In this document: piece after piece, positions 40,893 to 63,610 of the stretch
How the letters are laid out: the number at the start of each line of letters is the position of its first letter
Numbering within the stretch: position 1 is the stretch's first letter
Origin: Rhodospirillaceae bacterium
Lineage (GTDB): Bacteria > Pseudomonadota > Alphaproteobacteria > MPNO01 > UBA2964
Direction of reading: 5' to 3'
Assembly: GCA_002720855.1 (NCBI GenBank)
Contig: PBIN01000014.1
Location: forward strand, 841,619 to 905,618
Length of the DNA stretch: 64,000 nucleotides
Position numbers and translations under genes: made by a program
Notes under the pieces: generated by a model
Database searches by the model: none
What the model saw: only the letters and a program-made list of their open reading frames with translations
Told to the model about the DNA's origin: nothing

Positions 40893-42451
40893 TTAATTGG
40901 TTGCGGGCGCATTCGCCGGGACTGGCGCCATGGCTCCAACCACTTGCCGCAAATCATTGAGCAATGATGCCGTTGCTTTTCCGGTGACATTTAAACCGGC
41001 AAACCTCTGATACATCTTAATCGCCTCGACCGTATTCTTTCCCATGACGCCATCCGGTTTGCCTGGTGCCAAATCCAGTCGGGCGAGAAGTGACTGGATT
41101 TCCGCCACACCTGCCTTGTTTAGATCGCTGGTCCGATTATTTACAGCCGCCATTCCAGCGGCGGGCGTTGTCGAAGACGCTTTGGCAATCTCTGATTTAG
41201 TTGGTTGGTCCGACGCTACAATTTTTGCACGCTCCAGTTTTTTAGCAGCTTCAGCACTTCCGGCTGCAAGCGCCTTATTAAAATAGGCCGTAGCGGTTTT
41301 GTTGTCCTTTTTGACCCCAAGACCGTGCTCGTGCATTAGCCCCAAACTGTACATTGAATCCGCAAGGCCCTGCGCACTGCTTTTTTTGAACCAGTGAGCC
41401 GCTTGTTTGTAGTTTTTGGGTGTTCCTCTGCCCTGCGCATACAGCGTTCCCAAATTGTGTTGAGCTTTTACATGACCTTTTTGAGCCGCTTTTTGATACA
41501 ACGCGATTGCTTTGCCAGGGTCTTTTGATACGCCTCGGCCCAGCTCGTAAAGTAACGCAAGATTGTACTGTGCCGGGGCAATGCCGCCCTCCGCTGCCTT
41601 TTCCAACCAGACGACGGCATTTTACGGACTCTTTGCAAAACCTTTACCAGCGAGGTGTCGATTTGCCAGTTCGAATTGCGCCGCATTGTTGCCGCGGTTA
41701 GCGAGCTCGGTGAGTTCTTTTGCGCTCAAATTCTCAAGGGATTTGATAACTTTGACATCATCCTCAGTAACCTTTGTCGTCTTTACAGCTGCACTTGAAA
41801 CTGCACCTGAATCTTTTCCGGTTGGCAGGGCTGCTTGTTGTTGCGTCTCGCCAGACGGTTTTGTTGCAGGCGCTATTTTCTTGGCGACCTCGCGTTTGGC
41901 GTCCGTGTCTTTGTTTACGGTATCGAAATTCTGTTTTGAAGCGGCCTGTTGTTGGGACGACGGCGAGACTGCGCGTTGATTTTTATCATATATCCATAAG
42001 CCACCGGCGAGTGCGGCAACAATAGCGCACCCCAACAATCCCATTTGTGCGAAGACAGGTTTTTTGCGTTTTGCAGAAGCGGCAACAACAGTTTCAACGC
42101 TAGAGGTTTGTGGTCTGCCACCCATAGCTTCGTCTGCATCTTGAGGACCGTCTTTTTTCGACCCTTTATCGCGGGCGGATTGCAAAGCCTGTTCGACTTC
42201 GGCGCTAGCCGTACTGGCCGCACGCTCAGATTTTTTTCGTGGTTCGATTTCGTTGTTGAGGAAACCGATTCGGAATCATTCGAATTGTCTGCAGCTCCCG
42301 GACTTAAATCCGACTGTCTTTCTGCACGATTTTTGATTGCACGATCTACCCAGGCACCGATCGTCATTCCATGACGTTTGGCAGCTTCCTTTGCTATCTG
42401 CCGTGCGTCTGGGTCTACTCCCTTTACACTCCAGGGACTCGACTTTGCCAT
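40893..42451 (-). pseudogene. PodJ-like protein with Sel1 repeats and peptidoglycan-binding domain, broken by frameshift and stop
   Basis: Joined across two lesions this would be about 519 residues. The N-terminus (SPWSVKGVDPDARQIAKEAA) is the PodJ-type motif. Then come a polar linker, a membrane span (about MGLLGCAIVAALAGGLWIYD), four or so Sel1 repeats and a C-terminal peptidoglycan-binding domain (SLLARLDLAPGKPDGVMGKNTVEAIKMYQRFAG). The frame changes near an A7 run (T7 at 42231-42237 on the plus strand); one extra A would restore it. A TAA at 41622-41624 interrupts the first Sel1 repeat in frame. Decay or sequence error are both possible. Confidence 0.82.
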
Positions 42452-42641
42452 TTTCCGAACTCCTCCCGCAGAAGACTATACCGGGGTCCCATCACCGTTG
42501 TTAAGAGCAAAATCGGATAGTTATGGTTAACAAATTGTAAATATATCGGAGAGCAACGATTGCGCTAATTCGTGCCTACAAATGAGTGTCACCTAGCAAA
42601 TCAAATGAATATTTTGGGTGGGTGTTTGTCGAAATTGCGTG

Positions 42642-52230: not shown

Positions 52231-53436
52231 ATGGAGGCTGTTGCAGGCTTTCCAAGACGAGAAGTGCAAGCGATCAGCCTGATCGGTTTCGCCCATATGC
52301 TGAGTCACCTCTATATGTTGGCTCTGGCGCCAATGGCGCCATCGGCGATTTTGGAGCTGGGCATATCCGCTATCCAATGGGGGGGAGCTCTAGCGCTTTT
52401 TGCGGTCACCACTGGTATTTGCCAAACCCCAATGGGTGTTTTGGTTGAGCGTATTGGGGGGCGGCGCGTTCTTATTGGAGGCCTCTTGCTCAATGCAATG
52501 GCATTTTTTGCAATTGGCGCCTATGTGACGTCTTACCTCGAACTGATGGTTCTGATGGCAATCGCAGGCATTGGTAATTCAGTATTTCACCCGGCTGACT
52601 ATTCGCTGCTCAATTCTACAGTAGGGGAGAAGAGGATTGGCCGTGCCTTTTCAATCCATAACTTTTCGGGACAGGTTGGATTTATCGCTGGGCCCCTCGT
52701 AACGGTCGCGCTTGAACCCTTTATAGGATGGCGTGGTGCCATCATGACGATTGGCGGTGTCGGGATGGTGATGACGGTTTTGCTGATTCTGTTCAGCGCC
52801 ACCATCAACGAGGGTAATAAGATCAAGAAAAAATCGCCTATAAAAGACCGTCTGCGCGATCTTATGACATCGAAGCCGGTGATGCTGTTTTTTGTCTTCT
52901 ACATGTGCTCTTCGCTGGGCAACTTCGGTATTACACAGTTTTCGGTTCTGGCATTCCAGCCAATGTATGGATTGGAAAAGGTAGCCGTCGTTATTGCTCT
53001 GACGGCATACCAGATTGGCACGCTGGTCCTCATTCTACCCGGCGGCATTATGGCCGATAAGGTTCAACGTTATGACTTTGTCATGTTTTTTGGCTTCGGT
53101 TTTGCTGCCGTGGCAATGTTTTTGGTTGGCACGGGTGTGCTGCCATTCTGGTTGGTGATCGGTACACTTTGTGTCGCCGGCGCGATGCGCGGCGGCGTGA
53201 ATGCAACGCGGGATGTTGCCGTCAGACATGTCATCAGGCATTTGCCAATTGGAACGGTGTTCGCATTTGTGACAACGGGTTTCACGGCAGGGCAGGCTTT
53301 TGGCGGCGTGATCTATGGTTATTTGTTCGACAATTATCCGCCAAGCTACATCTTTTACGGTTGCGCATTCTTTACGGTTATCGGTGCGTTAACTGTGTTG
53401 TTCAACCGCGGGACAAGGCAGGGGGACGTTTCTTGA
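52231..53436 (+). CDS. MFS transporter (first of a tandem pair)
   Basis: The product is 401 residues with twelve predicted spans. The loop between helices 2 and 3 reads GVLVERIGGRRVLIGG, the major facilitator signature, and GIGNSVFHPADYSLLN resembles the Fsr-type (fosmidomycin resistance-like) subgroup. Direction of transport is not evident. GGGGG lies about nine bases before the ATG. The stop overlaps the TTG start of the second, related transporter. Confidence 0.9.
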   Translation: MEAVAGFPRREVQAISLIGFAHMLSHLYMLALAPMAPSAILELGISAIQWGGALALFAVTTGICQTPMGVLVERIGGRRVLIGGLLLNAMAFFAIGAYVTSYLELMVLMAIAGIGNSVFHPADYSLLNSTVGEKRIGRAFSIHNFSGQVGFIAGPLVTVALEPFIGWRGAIMTIGGVGMVMTVLLILFSATINEGNKIKKKSPIKDRLRDLMTSKPVMLFFVFYMCSSLGNFGITQFSVLAFQPMYGLEKVAVVIALTAYQIGTLVLILPGGIMADKVQRYDFVMFFGFGFAAVAMFLVGTGVLPFWLVIGTLCVAGAMRGGVNATRDVAVRHVIRHLPIGTVFAFVTTGFTAGQAFGGVIYGYLFDNYPPSYIFYGCAFFTVIGALTVLFNRGTRQGDVS

Positions 53437-54656
53437 CCAGTGCTGTTTCAACATCATTGGAACCGCGTGAACACACGGCCATCTGGCTAATTGGTTCAGG
53501 CCATTTGGTCAGCCATTTTTATCACATGGTTCTTCCAATGATGTTTCCTTTCGTTGTGAAAGACCTTGGTGTGAGTGTGACCGAGATCGCTTTCTCTATG
53601 ACATTGTACTTTGTTTCCACGGCAATTGTACAAGTGCCGATTGGTCTTCTGGTGGACAGAGTTGGGGCAAGATTGGTTCTGGTCTCCGGAATGGCGCTAA
53701 TGGGGCTGGCAATGCTCGTCGCGGGATTAATCCCCGATTACTACGTTATTTTGGCGGCGGCATTTGTTGCCGGTATCGGGAATGCCGTTTTTCACCCTGC
53801 TGATTTCTCAATTCTTTCCGCCAGTGTTCGAGAGAGCCACCATGGAAGAGCGTTTGCTTCACATACTTTTGGTGGTTCGATCGGATACGCAGCCGCACCG
53901 GCAGTACTGGTGCCATTAGGGGCGTTAGTTGGCTGGCAAACTGCGGTAATTCTTTCGGGGCTTCTTGGAATTGCTATGGCGATTGTAATTGCTCTGTTCG
54001 GAAAATCACTGCGCGACGAAAATGTTGCGACAGGAGGAGGGAAAGACGAAGCGAAAGACCCTGCAAAAGAGGGGAACTGGCGCATCATGCTCACGCGCCC
54101 ACTTATCCTTTTCTTTTTGTTTTATGTTGCGACTTCTGCTTCAGGTACGGGGATGACGTCATTCGCCATTCTCGCGCTACCTCTTGTTTATGACGTGACG
54201 CCCGAAATCGCTGGCGTGTTTGTGACCTGCTTTTTGACAGCAGCTATTGTTGGCTCTTTGCCGGGAGGCTGGCTCGCGGACTGGGCTCGTCTTGAATATT
54301 TGGTCGTTGTCGCCTGCTTCCTGGTTCTGGCGGGGTGTTTGGTACTCCTCGGTACCGGGGCGTTCTCAATATGGTTGGTGTTCGCAGCAGGTCTTGTCGG
54401 TGGATGTATGAGGGGGCTGTACAATGCCTCCAGAGACATTTTGGTTCGGAGATCATCCCCGCCCGGCAGTGTCGGCACAGCCTTCGGTTTCGTTACTCTG
54501 GGCTATACTTTGGGGCAGGGGGGGACGCCGTTATTATATGGCTGGCTAATGGATAGCGGTCTCGGCCAAGAGGTTTTCTACGCTTCGGCCCTATTTGCTT
54601 TTATTGCGATGCTGATTGTCCTAATCCCTGGGCAGGGGCAAAAGGCCAAGACCTAA
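53433..54656 (+). CDS. MFS transporter (second of a tandem pair)
   Basis: The product is about 407 residues from TTG at 53433, which overlaps the previous stop (TTGA) and has a GGGGGA site; the frame is open from 53169 but that part is an overlap artefact. It is a paralogue of the preceding protein: GLLVDRVGARLVLVSG and GIGNAVFHPADFSILSA correspond to the same motifs. Twelve spans are likely. The stop overlaps the convergent fusion gene by four bases, so uptake of that enzyme's substrate is a plausible job. Confidence 0.9.
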   Translation: MTSAVSTSLEPREHTAIWLIGSGHLVSHFYHMVLPMMFPFVVKDLGVSVTEIAFSMTLYFVSTAIVQVPIGLLVDRVGARLVLVSGMALMGLAMLVAGLIPDYYVILAAAFVAGIGNAVFHPADFSILSASVRESHHGRAFASHTFGGSIGYAAAPAVLVPLGALVGWQTAVILSGLLGIAMAIVIALFGKSLRDENVATGGGKDEAKDPAKEGNWRIMLTRPLILFFLFYVATSASGTGMTSFAILALPLVYDVTPEIAGVFVTCFLTAAIVGSLPGGWLADWARLEYLVVVACFLVLAGCLVLLGTGAFSIWLVFAAGLVGGCMRGLYNASRDILVRRSSPPGSVGTAFGFVTLGYTLGQGGTPLLYGWLMDSGLGQEVFYASALFAFIAMLIVLIPGQGQKAKT

Positions 54657-57600
54657 GATCCATCTGGTGAAGCGTTTGTACAGAGTTCCCTAACAAGGTG
54701 GACCTGAATTTTTCCTGCCGGTGTTCTTGGAATGTGATCGACGAGCACGATCTGTCGAACGCGTTTATATCGAGCAACGTTATTGGCTGTGAATTCCAGA
54801 ATGTTTTCAATATCAGGATCGTTATTCTTGGAAACAATTGCCGCGATGGGCAATTCGCCCCATGTATCGTCTTCGATTCCGATAACAGCACAGTCTGTGA
54901 CGTCGGGGTGGGACTGCAACACTTCTTCCAATTCTCCAGGATAAATATTCATCCCACCGGACAAAATTATGTGTTTGGATCGCCCAACAAGCGAAAAATA
55001 ACCCTCGTGCTTTTCCGCAAGGTCACCCGTCCAGCCCCAATCTCCGGCAGTGGTCCCTGTTCTGAAGAACTCGGCCTCGGCGTCGGGGTCCTCAAGATAG
55101 CCAGTCATGAGTTGCGGGCCACGCATTGCGACTTCGCCGATCTCTCCGTTTGTTGCGGGAATTCCCGGTTCTTTGAAAATTTCAATTTCCAACCGTCCGC
55201 CCGGCTGGTTATAGCCGTCATAAACATCGACGCGATTTTCTTTGTTCTGTGCCGCCATATGGCCGGTCTCTGTAGAGCCATAGGCCCGCTCGCAGCTGAC
55301 CCATGGCATTGCAGCTTCGATCCGTTCAATGAGCGCTTTCGATAATGGCGCGCCGCCAAATACAATTCTCCGTAACGTGCGAAGCCGATCTGGCTCAAAA
55401 ATCGGATTATCCAATAGGGTCGCGAGTTGTGCGGGGAAAGCAAATATCGTCGTGATCTTGTGCTGTTCAGTAAGGGCCATAAAGAGTTCTGCATCCCATT
55501 TCGGGATGATGACCCCCGTACAGCCGGATAGAACAGCAGGCTGGAACCACGATGTAAGTCCGGCCGCATGGGAAAACGGAACGGAAAATCCACCGACTTC
55601 GTCTGGGGAAATTCTAAAATCCTCCAGCGCCGCCATTGCAGAAATCGCTCGCGCGCGTTGCGAGGAGAGAACAGCCTTTGGTTTGCCAGTTGTGCCACCG
55701 GTAAAAATCACCGTACCCGGATCTTCCGGATTTATTTCCATCTCGGGCGCATTGTCAGGGTAATTCGCAAAAGCTCCCCAGAACCCGGAAACATTTTTTG
55801 GTTCTTCGTCATCGATAAATACTTGTATCGGCGGTTCTTCAAAATCACTCTGAGCCGATTCGACCAGCTCCCGACATACCGCATCGATGATCATCATCGC
55901 TGGCATGGTCAGGTTGACAGCCAGAGCCAGATCCTTGGGAGTACAGCGTGTATGCAGATTTACCGAATGGCGGCCGGTACGCGCAGTCCCAAAATGAGCT
56001 ATGGCATATTCAGCGGAATTTTTCCCCATAATGCCAACCGGTCCTTCACGGTCAGCGAGCCTATCGACAACAAAATGTGCAAATCTGTTGGCTGCTTTAT
56101 CAAGTTCGGCAAAAGTCCATTGTCGATCGCCACAAATTAATCCTGTCTTGTCCGGATGCGCCTGAGCCGCGTAATCGAGAATTTCGCCAGTTGTCGAGAT
56201 ATTCTGCCCCGTTTCAAGTTGGCGATGGTTTGGATGCGAGAAGCTCAATTTTTTTTCGCCGGATTCATAACTTGGGATGTACGTCGCCGGTTTCTCTCCA
56301 CCGTTAGCCCTGCGGATGAGTGCTTCTTCGACAGTCTCGGCCTCCGCTGCATGCTTTAAACCCTGCTTGCGATCAAGGGGGAACGCTGCCATTAGATCTG
56401 GTGGCGGTAAGGTAGATGCCGGGTAATAGGCCATCTTTTGTTCCTTCGGAATTTTCTTCTTCGGGTCGATCATTGGCCGATTGGCTTCTTTTGCGGCTAC
56501 CGTGAAGTTTTTGGGATCATACTTGAACGATTTATCGCCCATTACCTCAAGGTCGAGCCACCACTTTTTGGCATCAATTGGATTGCCATAACCGAGAAAG
56601 TCGTCGAGCCAGATAGCAATGGGCTGCAGGACCGGTTTGAGCCACATAGCGTGAACGCCAAGCCAACTACCCAGCTGGTGCAGGATGGGCCCATCCAATG
56701 TCGTATCTTTGGTCAACGGGCAAATATGAATGCAGCGGCCGCATGAGGACCCCTTTAGGTTCGTGGCGCGGTAACTCGTGCAACGTTCCGTGTCGGGTTT
56801 CCAGGTCTCGTATCCGTTAAACATCACTTTGTCGCCATAGGGGATTGCCTGGCTAGGACATTCGCGGGCGCATTTCAGGCAACTGCCACAAAATTGCTGC
56901 AAACCGAAATCAATGGGCCTGTCGGGGACCAAGGGAATATCGGTTGTAAGCACAGCAGTCTTAAAGCGCATGCCGAGGAATGGGTTTAGCGCGCTTTCAC
57001 CAATCCGGCTTTGCTCGCCGAGGCCCGAAAGGAGCACCAGCGGTACATGAAGGACATGACTGTCGAGACTGGAATGCGCGCGGGCCGGATGTCCCATTTC
57101 GCGCAGCATCGCCGCAACGACGCCCACGATTTCGGCTCCCCTCAAATAGGATCGCATCGACTGCGCTCCAGAAATCCAGTCATTTCCTGAAGCGCCGAGA
57201 ACTGTTTCATGCCCCTGGTCAATTAAAACTGTAAGGGCATATTTATGATAGGGATCGATAGGCTGACCGCGCTTGTCATGCGAATACCAACAGTAATCGG
57301 GGATCTCACAAATTCCGGTAATAGCTGCTCCCATATAGTGGCAAAGCGCTTTTAGAGCCTTTGTATTCTCTTCTGCATCAGTGCTGTCAGCCGCCATTTG
57401 GCTTGCTGTTTGGCCTTCCTGCAATGTTTTGACGCCCCACATTGGGCGGACGATACCTTGGGCCACGGGCTGCTTTTGAGACCAGCGATTTGCTTGACCT
57501 TGGGCTTTCTTGCTGAGGTCGCCCAACGCGGTGCGAACGTAAAAGTTTGCCCGGCTTGGGACCCGCGGTACTTCGTCGTCGATAATCAGCGTTGTCGGAC

Positions 57601-58423
57601 GATCAATCCTTTTGAGGTCCTCAACAGGGTAGGGACCAAGATGGGAAGGCCTCCGCTTGCGCCGCCAACGTTCCAGGCCTGATACCGCGCCGCTCAGTCC
57701 AATTTGATAGCTGAGGTCGCGTCCGTCTCGGGTATCTGGGTGCAGTGGCTTGTCGCATTCGACGATATAATCTGTTGTTATGACGGCAACCGAAAATCGG
57801 CCATCAAGATATGGATTGACCAGCGCATCATCTTCCCGAATTGCCAGCCCGGCAAGAACAGTCAATTTGTCGAGATCGATATCCGTGGCGCCGGTCCAAT
57901 GGCATTTGGACTTGAAACCCATGCTGGAAATTTGACCGCTAATGCAGGTGGCGATTTCAGCGGCACGCAATGTCGACAACAGATGGGCATTGCCATCGAC
58001 CCAGCCCGCCGCCTTATTGTCAGAGTCTATTGGATCTGAATATTCCACCAATATGACAATGGCATGCGTTACTTCGCGGCCAGTACTGCCTAACCATGCC
58101 GAAGTCGGTATTTTAAAAATTCCCACTTGCGACGCATCGAGAAAATACCCGGCTCCTTTTATATCAGCGCTGCGTCTGGGTAGTTGGTCCGGTACAGGTG
58201 CCTTTTTAGAGAAAGGTTCCGGTTCCCGGAGTTCGTTATAGGCTTCGAGGTGTGCGCGTACGGCGGAGACCAAATATTTGCTACCACCTGTTGTTATCTC
58301 TTTCGGAGTGCGCGCGCGCCGATTGGCTTCTTCTTCAATGATCGATGGATCGCGACGTAACCCCTCAAGCGGGTACGGACCGAAATCAACGGGCCGGTTT
58401 TGCCGTTTTCTTCTGCTCAGCAT
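54653..58423 (-). CDS. Tandem reductive-dehalogenase-like protein fused to an AMP-forming acyl-CoA ligase
   Basis: The product is 1256 residues in one uninterrupted frame. Module 1 (about 1-245) and module 2 (about 258-640) are homologous, each opening with a GPYPxExL motif. Module 2 has the reductive-dehalogenase pattern GLGEQSRIGESALNPFLGMR, VLTTDIPLV, then two ferredoxin clusters: Cys512, 515, 518, 522, and Cys561, 564, 568 with probable Cys548. Module 1 lacks the cysteines. Residues 742-1250 are an acyl-CoA ligase with FTGGTTGKPK (from about 907), GWTGDLAEKHEGYF, and TPAGKIQ. There is no Tat signal. A cytoplasmic cobamide reductase linked to CoA activation is inferred. Confidence 0.85.
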   Translation of the reverse strand: MLSRRKRQNRPVDFGPYPLEGLRRDPSIIEEEANRRARTPKEITTGGSKYLVSAVRAHLEAYNELREPEPFSKKAPVPDQLPRRSADIKGAGYFLDASQVGIFKIPTSAWLGSTGREVTHAIVILVEYSDPIDSDNKAAGWVDGNAHLLSTLRAAEIATCISGQISSMGFKSKCHWTGATDIDLDKLTVLAGLAIREDDALVNPYLDGRFSVAVITTDYIVECDKPLHPDTRDGRDLSYQIGLSGAVSGLERWRRKRRPSHLGPYPVEDLKRIDRPTTLIIDDEVPRVPSRANFYVRTALGDLSKKAQGQANRWSQKQPVAQGIVRPMWGVKTLQEGQTASQMAADSTDAEENTKALKALCHYMGAAITGICEIPDYCWYSHDKRGQPIDPYHKYALTVLIDQGHETVLGASGNDWISGAQSMRSYLRGAEIVGVVAAMLREMGHPARAHSSLDSHVLHVPLVLLSGLGEQSRIGESALNPFLGMRFKTAVLTTDIPLVPDRPIDFGLQQFCGSCLKCARECPSQAIPYGDKVMFNGYETWKPDTERCTSYRATNLKGSSCGRCIHICPLTKDTTLDGPILHQLGSWLGVHAMWLKPVLQPIAIWLDDFLGYGNPIDAKKWWLDLEVMGDKSFKYDPKNFTVAAKEANRPMIDPKKKIPKEQKMAYYPASTLPPPDLMAAFPLDRKQGLKHAAEAETVEEALIRRANGGEKPATYIPSYESGEKKLSFSHPNHRQLETGQNISTTGEILDYAAQAHPDKTGLICGDRQWTFAELDKAANRFAHFVVDRLADREGPVGIMGKNSAEYAIAHFGTARTGRHSVNLHTRCTPKDLALAVNLTMPAMMIIDAVCRELVESAQSDFEEPPIQVFIDDEEPKNVSGFWGAFANYPDNAPEMEINPEDPGTVIFTGGTTGKPKAVLSSQRARAISAMAALEDFRISPDEVGGFSVPFSHAAGLTSWFQPAVLSGCTGVIIPKWDAELFMALTEQHKITTIFAFPAQLATLLDNPIFEPDRLRTLRRIVFGGAPLSKALIERIEAAMPWVSCERAYGSTETGHMAAQNKENRVDVYDGYNQPGGRLEIEIFKEPGIPATNGEIGEVAMRGPQLMTGYLEDPDAEAEFFRTGTTAGDWGWTGDLAEKHEGYFSLVGRSKHIILSGGMNIYPGELEEVLQSHPDVTDCAVIGIEDDTWGELPIAAIVSKNNDPDIENILEFTANNVARYKRVRQIVLVDHIPRTPAGKIQVHLVRELCTNASPDGS

Positions 58424-60224: not shown

Positions 60225-61925
60225 ATGAAATATGACTTTATAGTTGCTGGCGGCGGGTCAGCGGGTTGTGTTCTGGCGAGCCGGCTCTCCGAAATTTCGA
60301 CTAACAATGTGCTGTTGATCGAAGCTGGCAAGGACTTCAAGCCGGGGGCGGAACCGGCTGATATCAGGTCTTCCTACCCGATGGCAGCGTCCTTCAATCC
60401 AGCCTATCACTGGTCCAATTTAAAAGTTCGGCAGGCCGAAAACCGTTCTAACCAGCCTGGCGGTGAAACACCGTTGCGGTTTTTGGAACAGGCTCGTGTC
60501 GTTGGTGGTGGCTCTAGCATAAATGCACAAATGGCGAACCGTGGATCACCTGAAGATTACAATGAATGGGTGGATCTCGGCGCTGAAGGCTGGGGTTGGG
60601 ATGACGTGTTGCCATTTTTTAAAAAGCTTGAGTCCGATCAGGATTTTGATGGTGAACTCCACGGAAAAGATGGACCCATTACAATACGCCGCGTCAAAGA
60701 GCACCAATGGTGCGGGTTTTCACACATTGTAACCAAAGTTCTAGAAAACGCGGGTTTCCAGCGGCAGGATGACCAAAATGGTCCGTTCGTCGATGGTTAC
60801 TTTCCCACTTCGATTTCCAATCACCCGGATGACCACCGGCAATCGGCGGCGATGGGATACCTCAATCCCGATGTTCGCAAGCGCCCAAATTTGTATATCC
60901 GGTCGGAAACGCATGTCGAATCAATCGTGTTTGAGGGTGCCAAGGCCATCGGTGTCAGGGTCAACCAAAACGGTAAATCTGAGACAGTTTTTGCCAATGA
61001 AGTCATCATTTCATTAGGCGCTCTCCATACGCCGGCTGCATTGATGCGGTCGGGTATTGGCAGAGCTGCGCATCTGCGTGAATTAGGCGTTGAAGTGGTG
61101 GCAGACCGGGCCGGTGTCGGTATGAATTTAAATGAACATCCGACGATAGCGGTTTCGTCATATTTGCATTCTGGGGCTCGGCTCATGGAACTAAACAGAG
61201 GACATGCCCAGATTGCCTTCCGGTATAGTTCTGGCATCGAAGGATGCGGCGCTCAGGATATGTATGTTTCCGTTAGCGCAAAATCGGGTTGGCATGCTGT
61301 GGGCCAACGGCTTGGCTCTTTCCTGTTGTGGTGCAACAAGCCGTATTCGCGTGGCTCTGTCGCGCTAACATCTTCTGACCCGTTTGCCGAACCCGAAGTC
61401 GCTTTTGAAATGTTGTCTGATCGCCGGGATATGGAAAGGCTCAAAGATGCCATCAGGCGTCTGGCAGCATTGTTCGATGATCCGGAAATGAAAAATATCG
61501 CCACTGATCCCTTTCCATCAAACTATTCGGAAAGGGTACGCCGTATCGGTGCCGTCACGACGAAGAATAAGATACTGACGAATATCCTTGGTTTCCTGAT
61601 GGACGGGCCGAGGCCGCTCAGACGCGCCGCGATTCACGGATTTATCACTCAGGGAATAACGCTAAAGGGTCTGCTCGCCGACGAAGCAGCGATGGAGGAA
61701 TGGATTCGCGACGGTGTAACGGGTTGCTGGCATCCATCGGGAACCTGCCGAATGGGCCTGTCTGATGACCCGATGGCGGTGACCGACAATCAGGGCCGGG
61801 TCCTTGGTGTCCAGGGGTTGCGGGTGTGCGACGCGTCTATTTTCCCCTGTGTGCCACGGGCGAATACCAATATCCCGACGATCATGTGTGCGGAAAAAGT
61901 TTCGGACGCGATCAAGGCGGCATAG
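60225..61925 (+). CDS. GMC-family FAD-dependent oxidoreductase
   Basis: The product is 566 residues. The FAD-binding motif VAGGGSAGCVLASRLSE is at the N-terminus. The family segment LEQARVVGGGSSINAQMANRG comes next, and the C-terminal catalytic histidine lies in CWHPSGTCRMG with the partner asparagine in RANTNIPTIM. It oxidises an alcohol, perhaps an aromatic or aliphatic one, with a quinone or oxygen as acceptor. There is no signal peptide, so it is cytoplasmic. The UbiD-like gene follows 86 bases later. Confidence 0.94.
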   Translation: MKYDFIVAGGGSAGCVLASRLSEISTNNVLLIEAGKDFKPGAEPADIRSSYPMAASFNPAYHWSNLKVRQAENRSNQPGGETPLRFLEQARVVGGGSSINAQMANRGSPEDYNEWVDLGAEGWGWDDVLPFFKKLESDQDFDGELHGKDGPITIRRVKEHQWCGFSHIVTKVLENAGFQRQDDQNGPFVDGYFPTSISNHPDDHRQSAAMGYLNPDVRKRPNLYIRSETHVESIVFEGAKAIGVRVNQNGKSETVFANEVIISLGALHTPAALMRSGIGRAAHLRELGVEVVADRAGVGMNLNEHPTIAVSSYLHSGARLMELNRGHAQIAFRYSSGIEGCGAQDMYVSVSAKSGWHAVGQRLGSFLLWCNKPYSRGSVALTSSDPFAEPEVAFEMLSDRRDMERLKDAIRRLAALFDDPEMKNIATDPFPSNYSERVRRIGAVTTKNKILTNILGFLMDGPRPLRRAAIHGFITQGITLKGLLADEAAMEEWIRDGVTGCWHPSGTCRMGLSDDPMAVTDNQGRVLGVQGLRVCDASIFPCVPRANTNIPTIMCAEKVSDAIKAA

Positions 61926-62011
61926 CCTGCAGTTAACTGTCGCATGGTTGTTCGGCTTGAAGGCTGGTGCTACGTTCCCGCGCTATTACTTACCCAGACC
62001 GGAAGAGAAAA

Positions 62012-63610
62012 ATGTCCACCAGCTTTAGGCAGTTTGTCGAGGACCTCCGTACAGAAGGCCAGATTCGGGAAATCACAAAACCAACAGATATCCGACACAT
62101 TGCAGCACTAGTCGATCAATCGGAAACGGCGCTGATTTTTAGCAACGTCATTGGATATGACATGCCCGTTGTTTCCGGTTTGACAAACAGCCGTGACAGA
62201 CTGGCGATTGCTATGGGCTGTGATTTTGATGAAATCGAAGGTCGATTGCGCGAAGGCATAGATCGTCCTATCCCGCCGCGCATGGTTAACTCCGGTCCAG
62301 CACGGGAGATCGTTTTCGAGGGAGACGACGTAGATCTGTACAATTTACCCGTACCGTTGTTCTCGGTACGTGACGGCGGTCCGATGATGACCGCGGGAAT
62401 TACCCTTGCGGAGGATCCTGAACTTGGACTCAATGCCGGTATCTATCGGCTCTTGGTCAAAGATCGAAACACCACAGGGATTGATGTCGTAACGCCGAAC
62501 AATCTCCGAAAGCTTGCGGAAAAAGCCTTTGCCAAGGGTGAGCCCCTGCCGATCTCTGTCAATATCGGAACCCATCCGTCGGCATTGATTACTGGCTGTT
62601 TCAAAGCGGCAGCTGGTGTTGATGAAATTGCTATGGCAGGTGGCATGTTGGGTGAAGCGGTTGAATTAACACCATGTAAGACGGTCAGTACTCCTTGCAT
62701 CGCGGATGCCGAAATTGTTCTTGAAGCTGAACTTTTGCCGACTGGCTGGACCAAACCTGAAGGCCGGTTTGGAGAGTTTACCCGCCTGATGGGTGGGCTT
62801 CACTGGAACCCGCATGTACGCATCAAGGCGATTTCGATGCGTAAAAACCCCATGTATTACGCACTTCATATGCCATGGGAAAATATTTGGCCTAGTGGAC
62901 CTATCTATGAGGCCGCAGTTCGTCGCGCATTGCACGAAGCCGGTGTGTCGGTGACGGCAGTCAATATCACGCCGGGCGGCTGTTGCCATTGGCACGCCGT
63001 AATCGCCGTGAAGCCACTGCCCGGGGATGGTAAGAATGCAATTCTTGCAGCGCTGTCAGTAGCTGACATGAAACATGTTGTCGTTGTCGATGAGGATATC
63101 GACGTGTTCGACGGTATGGACGTCGAGTGGGCAATTGCCACACGTGTACAGGCCGACAAAGACGTTACCACCATTTCTGGAGCACGATCCAAGCCACTTG
63201 ACCCCAGCCTGACGATTGTCCCGGGCAAGATTCCGACGACAGCCAAGATGGGTATAGATGCGACCATCAGCGACGATTTGCCCCGTGAGCGTTTTGAGCG
63301 GATTACCTATGCTTACGCTGATGAGGTGGATTTGGACGACATGCTTGGTGACGGCCCGCCAAAAGAAGCAGCCCCTGAGATTTCAAACGAAGATGTTGCG
63401 GTACTGGCAGACAAGATTCGCGAAGCAATCACAAAAGAACCACTTTATTTTGCCCAGCTTGCGGAGCGTTTTTCGAGCGAAGGATTCCAGACGGTTGCGC
63501 GTGCTCTCGGAACAATCCATGAAGCAGAAGAGTTATGGCAGGATAAAGTCGGCAAATTCTGTCTTGCGGGGTCGGAGTTTGCCGCCGAGCCGCCGCAAAA
63601 GCGCGGCTAA
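62012..63610 (+). CDS. UbiD-family prenylated-FMN decarboxylase
   Basis: The product is about 532 residues from MSTSFRQFVEDLRTEGQIRE, with GGAAGAG upstream; an open frame from 61967 adds 15 residues. UbiD features include LYNLPVPLFSVRDGGPMMTAGITL, NAGIYRLLVKDRNTTGID and HWNPHVRIKA, with the EIVLEAELLPTGW segment holding active-site acidic residues. It decarboxylates or carboxylates aromatic or unsaturated acids with prenylated FMN, which requires UbiX; no ubiX is here. The C-terminal 80 residues extend beyond the core. Confidence 0.92.
   Translation: MSTSFRQFVEDLRTEGQIREITKPTDIRHIAALVDQSETALIFSNVIGYDMPVVSGLTNSRDRLAIAMGCDFDEIEGRLREGIDRPIPPRMVNSGPAREIVFEGDDVDLYNLPVPLFSVRDGGPMMTAGITLAEDPELGLNAGIYRLLVKDRNTTGIDVVTPNNLRKLAEKAFAKGEPLPISVNIGTHPSALITGCFKAAAGVDEIAMAGGMLGEAVELTPCKTVSTPCIADAEIVLEAELLPTGWTKPEGRFGEFTRLMGGLHWNPHVRIKAISMRKNPMYYALHMPWENIWPSGPIYEAAVRRALHEAGVSVTAVNITPGGCCHWHAVIAVKPLPGDGKNAILAALSVADMKHVVVVDEDIDVFDGMDVEWAIATRVQADKDVTTISGARSKPLDPSLTIVPGKIPTTAKMGIDATISDDLPRERFERITYAYADEVDLDDMLGDGPPKEAAPEISNEDVAVLADKIREAITKEPLYFAQLAERFSSEGFQTVARALGTIHEAEELWQDKVGKFCLAGSEFAAEPPQKRG

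Follow-up and report, generated by a model that had tools for sequence, protein, structure and literature searches.

A single gene in the 64,000-nucleotide stretch of Rhodospirillaceae DNA analysed here (the window) joins a reductive dehalogenase homologue (RdhA) in frame to an AMP-forming acyl-CoA ligase. The domain architecture is built from two known enzyme families, and in this assembly it is genuine and so far unique. The original prediction of one open frame, which gave no strand, is borne out on the minus strand: 1256 codons run without interruption from 58423 to 54653, while the plus strand is interrupted by many stop codons. The features of the gene and of its convergent neighbours are as follows; L009, L010 and L022 are loci of three genomes of the same genus.

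54653..58423, minus strand: fused rdhA-CoA ligase gene, 1256 aa
57674..58405, minus strand: N-terminal RdhA module, residues 7-250, duplicated and non-catalytic (known from NpRdhA)
56309..57664, minus strand: catalytic RdhA module, residues 254-705
57146-57148, 56960-56962 and 56768-56770, minus strand: active-site codons Y426, K488 and R552, respectively
56699..56902, minus strand: two [4Fe-4S] motifs, Cys 512/515/518/522 and 548/561/564/568
56201..56308, minus strand: junction or linker, residues 706-741
56249..56256, minus strand: A8 run joining the two frames
56246..56248, minus strand: TTG codon, counterpart of the separate ligase's start codon in L010 and L022
54680..56200, minus strand: AMP-forming acyl-CoA ligase, residues 742-1248, with all core motifs
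52231..53436, plus strand: MFS transporter 1, convergent, conserved in L009, L010 and L022
53430..54656, plus strand: MFS transporter 2, convergent, conserved in the relatives, with a 4-nt overlap with the 3' end of the fusion

The N-terminal half resembles NpRdhA

In a sequence search of solved structures, residues 7-704 match NpRdhA (4RAS/6ZXU) over its full length with 41% identity (E about 1e-162), a span that includes residues 258-640, the region originally likened to reductive dehalogenases. Other structures match far more weakly (PceA, 9e-25; the epoxyqueuosine reductase QueG, 0.0015). The domain search that the original prediction had suggested thus recovers the RdhA half by its match to the NpRdhA structures and the AMP-binding half by Pfam; no Pfam dehalogenase model matched the fused protein in the Pfam scan, which placed a dicluster ferredoxin at residues 512-569. 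Together, the presence of a dehalogenase and a complete ligase in one protein is far beyond chance. These matches support the assignment of the first half as a putative catabolic dehalogenase homologue of the NpRdhA/BhbA type. A maximum-likelihood tree joins the window sequence to L009-L011 (100/100) and places this group on the side of NpRdhA; the RdhA-PDOR fusions fall elsewhere in the tree.

The two homologous modules that had been predicted are real, since residues 4-227 and 252-504 form an internal repeat (E 2e-19, 24.5% identity). As a novelty, the tandem had to be discarded: a duplicated N-terminal module is already known in NpRdhA and JtRdhA (PMC10463259), and is therefore inherited from that family. 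The second module does hold two ferredoxin-type clusters, as expected, with all eight Cys in place. Relatives of the same family also encode RdhA paralogues of ~440-480 aa that lack the N-terminal module, occur as tandem pairs and are ~49% identical to the catalytic module (G011:C1:2322130-2324771; G007:C20:94438-97052; G003:C63:4794-7402).

In a 20-row alignment, S422, M423, Y426, K488, R552 and all eight Fe-S cysteines are conserved with respect to NpRdhA. In that enzyme, K488, R552 and S422 hold the phenolic OH of the substrate and the proton comes from Y426 (PMC7565698). The retention of the phenolic-OH-binding residues thus points to an ortho-halogenated phenol as the substrate. The same alignment reveals four pocket differences from NpRdhA (F310W, P311S, A419G and N452S), mostly common to the window's own subclade.

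The N-terminus, MLSRRKRQNRPVDFG, aligns to the start of NpRdhA, and inspection found no export signal in the form of a twin-arginine leader with a hydrophobic stretch. Nor is the locus of the respiratory type: besides the missing leader, there is no rdhB next door, the neighbours being MFS, GT2 and other genes. Pfam found no fused NAD(P)H/FMN/2Fe-2S reductase domain, the C-terminal partner being AMP-binding instead; hence, a separate ferredoxin or flavodoxin system would have to supply the electrons. An AlphaFold2 model of residues 255-1256, built on an 18-row alignment, has a mean pLDDT of 58 and a pTM of 0.43, values too low for conclusions on contacts between the domains.

The C-terminal half is a complete AMP-forming ligase

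Pfam matches AMP-binding at residues 750-1110 (8.7e-63) and AMP-binding_C at residues 1164-1238 (1.2e-17). The P-loop (FTGGTTGKPK, 907-916), the TGD motif (GWTGDLAEK, 1130-1138) and the catalytic Lys motif (RTPAGKIQ, 1233-1240) are all present, so that the ligase is complete, as had been claimed. Its domains and motifs are those of a predicted class I acyl-CoA ligase of the ANL superfamily. Among the listed NCBIfam models, none for a substrate-specific ligase class reached its cut-off.

The fusion looks recent and is probably real

Surveys of the family (13 genomes), order (27), class (385) and phylum (398), which partly overlap, revealed no RdhA-ligase fusion besides that in the window; neither did the other RdhA genes of 57 loci in a GTDB-species scan, eight plasmid records or the literature searched. 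These surveys are samples, and some of their loci are incomplete. Within that scope, the earlier statement that no dehalogenase fused to a CoA ligase is known holds.

The neighbourhood, which includes UbiD, GMC oxidoreductase, DUF454, GT2, two MFS genes, VOC and RidA among others, is syntenic in L009, L010 and L022. A gross misassembly of two genes, which had been named as a possible refutation, is ruled out by this four-genome synteny. In L010 and L022, the rdhA stop codon TGA is followed by a ~38-nt spacer with a Shine-Dalgarno-like AGGT and then by a ligase gene starting at TTG. In the window, this spacer is gone, the ligase's Shine-Dalgarno-like site is lost with it, and GAAAAAAAATTG joins the two frames. 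Given that the closest relatives have rdhA and ligase as separate neighbours, the gene appears to have arisen recently, by natural fusion of such a neighbouring pair. Compared with L010, pN/pS is 0.14 for RdhA and 0.23 for the ligase, and by module it is ~0.24 for the N-terminal module, the least constrained part, and ~0.09 for the catalytic one; all of these are rough values, synonymous sites being saturated. At that resolution, the comparison with L010 shows purifying selection on both halves.

L009 shares the rdhA gene and its flanks but lacks the ligase, which is thus dispensable there; genes for a methyl-accepting chemotaxis protein and PAS/histidine kinases, named by inspection, stand in the ligase's place (L009:10209-13910). 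In the genome that holds L022 (G011, OX638326; also L130-L149), many genes are split, including rdhA and the ligase, often at short perfect tandem duplications. This suggests that duplications are still creating pseudogenes there or that the assembly is faulty.

The fused reading hinges on one homopolymer, the A8 run at the junction. With seven A's, RdhA would end at residue 725, the length of the L009 protein, its stop overlapping the ancestral ligase start as TTGA; a run of nine would move the stop to residue 736, and one of ten to residue 726. Two translationally coupled proteins would then be made, and no fusion would exist in the living cell, if the genome truly holds A7 or if slippage gives mostly A7 mRNA. 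The length of the resulting RdhA, a ligase start at the same TTG as in the relatives and the lack of the fusion in every other genome surveyed fit such an arrangement, while the loss of the ligase's Shine-Dalgarno-like site does not.

The assembly itself also speaks against it. Over 203 kb compared with relatives, 37 homopolymers of 7-8 nucleotides (33 of them A or T) lie inside continuous gene alignments with no frameshift. The only homopolymer frameshift, at an A7 at about 42.2 kb of the window, falls in a SEL1/TPR-like gene (40893-42454, minus strand) that also carries an in-frame stop relative to its G007 homologue; owing to this additional stop, the gene is probably a genuine pseudogene. 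Since homopolymers are read through correctly elsewhere in the assembly, a real fusion is favoured and a one-base error at the junction is unlikely. RNA folding of the junction gave no structure beyond that of shuffled sequences (z = +1), and thus no stimulator for programmed frameshifting, although transcriptional slippage at A8 could make some separate RdhA. Overall, we consider it improbable that the cell makes two proteins in place of the fusion, and are fairly confident that the DNA encodes the fusion.

rdhA and CoA ligase genes are repeatedly paired

A CoA ligase lies within 1 kb of rdhA at 7 of 55 loci, all in one RdhA subclade with at least 66% identity to the window sequence. Three arrangements are found: (I) rdhA then ligase (fused in the window, separate in L010 and L022); (II) ligase, MarR and rdhA in this order (L018, where MarR was identified by Pfam, and likewise L017); (III) ligase and rdhA divergent, with an unrelated ligase that is ~27% identical to that of the window (L015, L016 and L021). 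We counted three arrangements and not seven events because related loci are not independent. Ligases are also far denser in the near zones (7 in ~100 kb) than in the remaining ~581 kb of flanking DNA (7). Given that the pairing recurs in three arrangements, one of them with an unrelated ligase, functional coupling of the two enzymes is likely on the strength of these gene neighbourhoods. The neighbourhood of L018 further includes an acyl-CoA dehydrogenase, an enoyl-CoA hydratase and a benzoate-CoA-ligase-family gene.

Ligases of the 3-(methylthio)propionyl-CoA ligase family near L013, L020 and L051 were left out of this support (L020 was placed by clustering; L013 and L051 were scanned). In L051 (7965-12913, Lentibacter algarum), a protein of RdhA-PDOR length is directly followed by such a gene. 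A related gene stands divergent next to rdhA in L012, L013, L014, L017, L018 and L020, and belongs to the MarR family by Pfam in L013 and L018; such a divergent MarR-family regulator might sense the substrate or its CoA ester.

A candidate bifunctional enzyme for halogenated hydroxyaryl acids

We propose a bifunctional catabolic enzyme that would combine removal of an ortho-halogen, probably bromine, from a 4-hydroxyaryl acid with CoA activation of that acid, a proposal that we judge evenly poised between right and wrong. The RdhA half, with cobalamin and two [4Fe-4S] clusters, would take the halogen off an aryl carboxylic acid at the position ortho to its phenolic OH, using electrons that, by comparison with NpRdhA, probably come from a separate donor of the ferredoxin or flavodoxin type. 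The ligase half would then link CoA to the carboxylate as a thioester, splitting ATP to AMP and PPi, and thereby commit the compound to catabolism. The fusion would thus tie dehalogenation to the next step of breakdown. The halogenated hydroxyaryl acid as substrate, the loss of the halogen from the free acid before CoA is attached and the handover between the halves are what we infer from the relatives and motifs described above. JtRdhA, for its part, debrominates and deiodinates free 4-hydroxybenzoates and 4-hydroxyphenylacetate, with no dechlorination. As the characterised relatives act on free phenolic acids, dehalogenation first is favoured here and is at least as likely as CoA activation first.

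The genome encodes CobS and four LigB-type extradiol dioxygenases, which speak for the proposal. In a genome search, boxB and paaA were absent and all pobA matches fell below the cut-off. Counted against the proposal are the absence of boxB and paaA, the lack of a pobA match above the cut-off, the lack of a match to a substrate-specific ligase family, and L009, which has no ligase.

The reverse order, in which the ligase makes a halogenated aryl-CoA and the RdhA half acts as a cobamide-dependent aryl-CoA reductive dehalogenase on the thioester, is the main rival, though an unlikely one. RdhA is both joined to a CoA ligase and repeatedly its neighbour, the four clade-specific substitutions show an altered pocket, and 3-chlorobenzoate breakdown in Rhodopseudomonas palustris RCB100 offers a physiological precedent (PMC8050959). 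What weighs against it is that the characterised relatives take free acids and phenols as substrates, and that the NpRdhA pocket has been described as closely shape-complementary to its substrate (PMC7565698).

A purely incidental fusion, in which both halves work on unrelated substrates and the pairing reflects operon adjacency only, we regard as unlikely. The genome holds ~18 further CoA-ligase matches, L009 does without the ligase, and so do most rdhA loci in their vicinity; yet all seven close ligases lie beside rdhA of one subclade, in the three arrangements above including that with an unrelated ligase, and their density falls steeply away from rdhA. Very improbable, finally, is another corrinoid reductase activity of the RdhA half, such as a QueG-like reaction or the reduction of a ring. 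Homology does not by itself determine the chemistry, and there is a weak match to epoxyqueuosine reductase, but the match to NpRdhA is overwhelmingly stronger and every dehalogenase active-site residue is kept. The original suggestion of acid activation followed by dehalogenation or ring reduction stands in part: the in-frame union of RdhA and acyl-CoA ligase is borne out and thioester formation ahead of dehalogenation is possible, whereas ring reduction is without support.

Comparison with known systems

The proposed bifunctional dehalogenase-ligase shares with NpRdhA its length and domain order over 700 residues, the duplicated N-module, the two 4Fe-4S motifs and identical key residues. It differs in that identity is 41%, NpRdhA has no ligase, and the four pocket positions are changed. 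BhbA (Comamonas sp. 7D-2) and JtRdhA (Jhaorihella thermophila) are likewise cytoplasmic catabolic RdhAs with an in-frame C-terminal partner domain, although theirs is an electron-feeding NAD(P)H/FMN/2Fe-2S reductase in place of a CoA ligase, and the RdhA-PDOR proteins form a separate clade. The pairs in L010, L022, L018 and L017 comprise an orthologous RdhA (68-88%) and an orthologous ligase (about 61-72%), but as separate genes, with the ligase first and the MarR gene between in L017 and L018.

The RCB100 3-chlorobenzoate pathway also combines a CoA ligase step with reductive dehalogenation; in contrast to the window, the functions are not in one protein, the genes are not fully identified and the substrate has no hydroxyl (PMC8050959). 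The RCB100 genome paper states that aliA does not by itself account for the 3-chlorobenzoate phenotype and that additional SNPs or genes must contribute (PMC8050959). As far as the literature was searched, aryl-CoA reductive dehalogenation has not been assigned to any RdhA.

Where known catabolic dehalogenases have a fusion partner, it is their electron donor, so that a CoA-ligase partner sets this protein apart. Together with the recurrent rdhA-ligase pairs, it points to a group of RdhAs that may be tied to the CoA-dependent breakdown of halogenated acids. It is also a concrete, expressible candidate for dehalogenation of CoA thioesters by a cobamide enzyme: if CoA activation did come first, the protein would be a one-protein module for aryl-CoA reductive dehalogenation, a reaction known from physiology. 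The A8 junction, in turn, provides a natural test of gene fusion versus slippage-controlled splitting.

It should also be noted that a GMC oxidoreductase and a UbiD-family decarboxylase lie near the fusion (60225-63610, plus strand) and are 84-94% identical in the relatives. They are possibly part of an aromatic-acid pathway.
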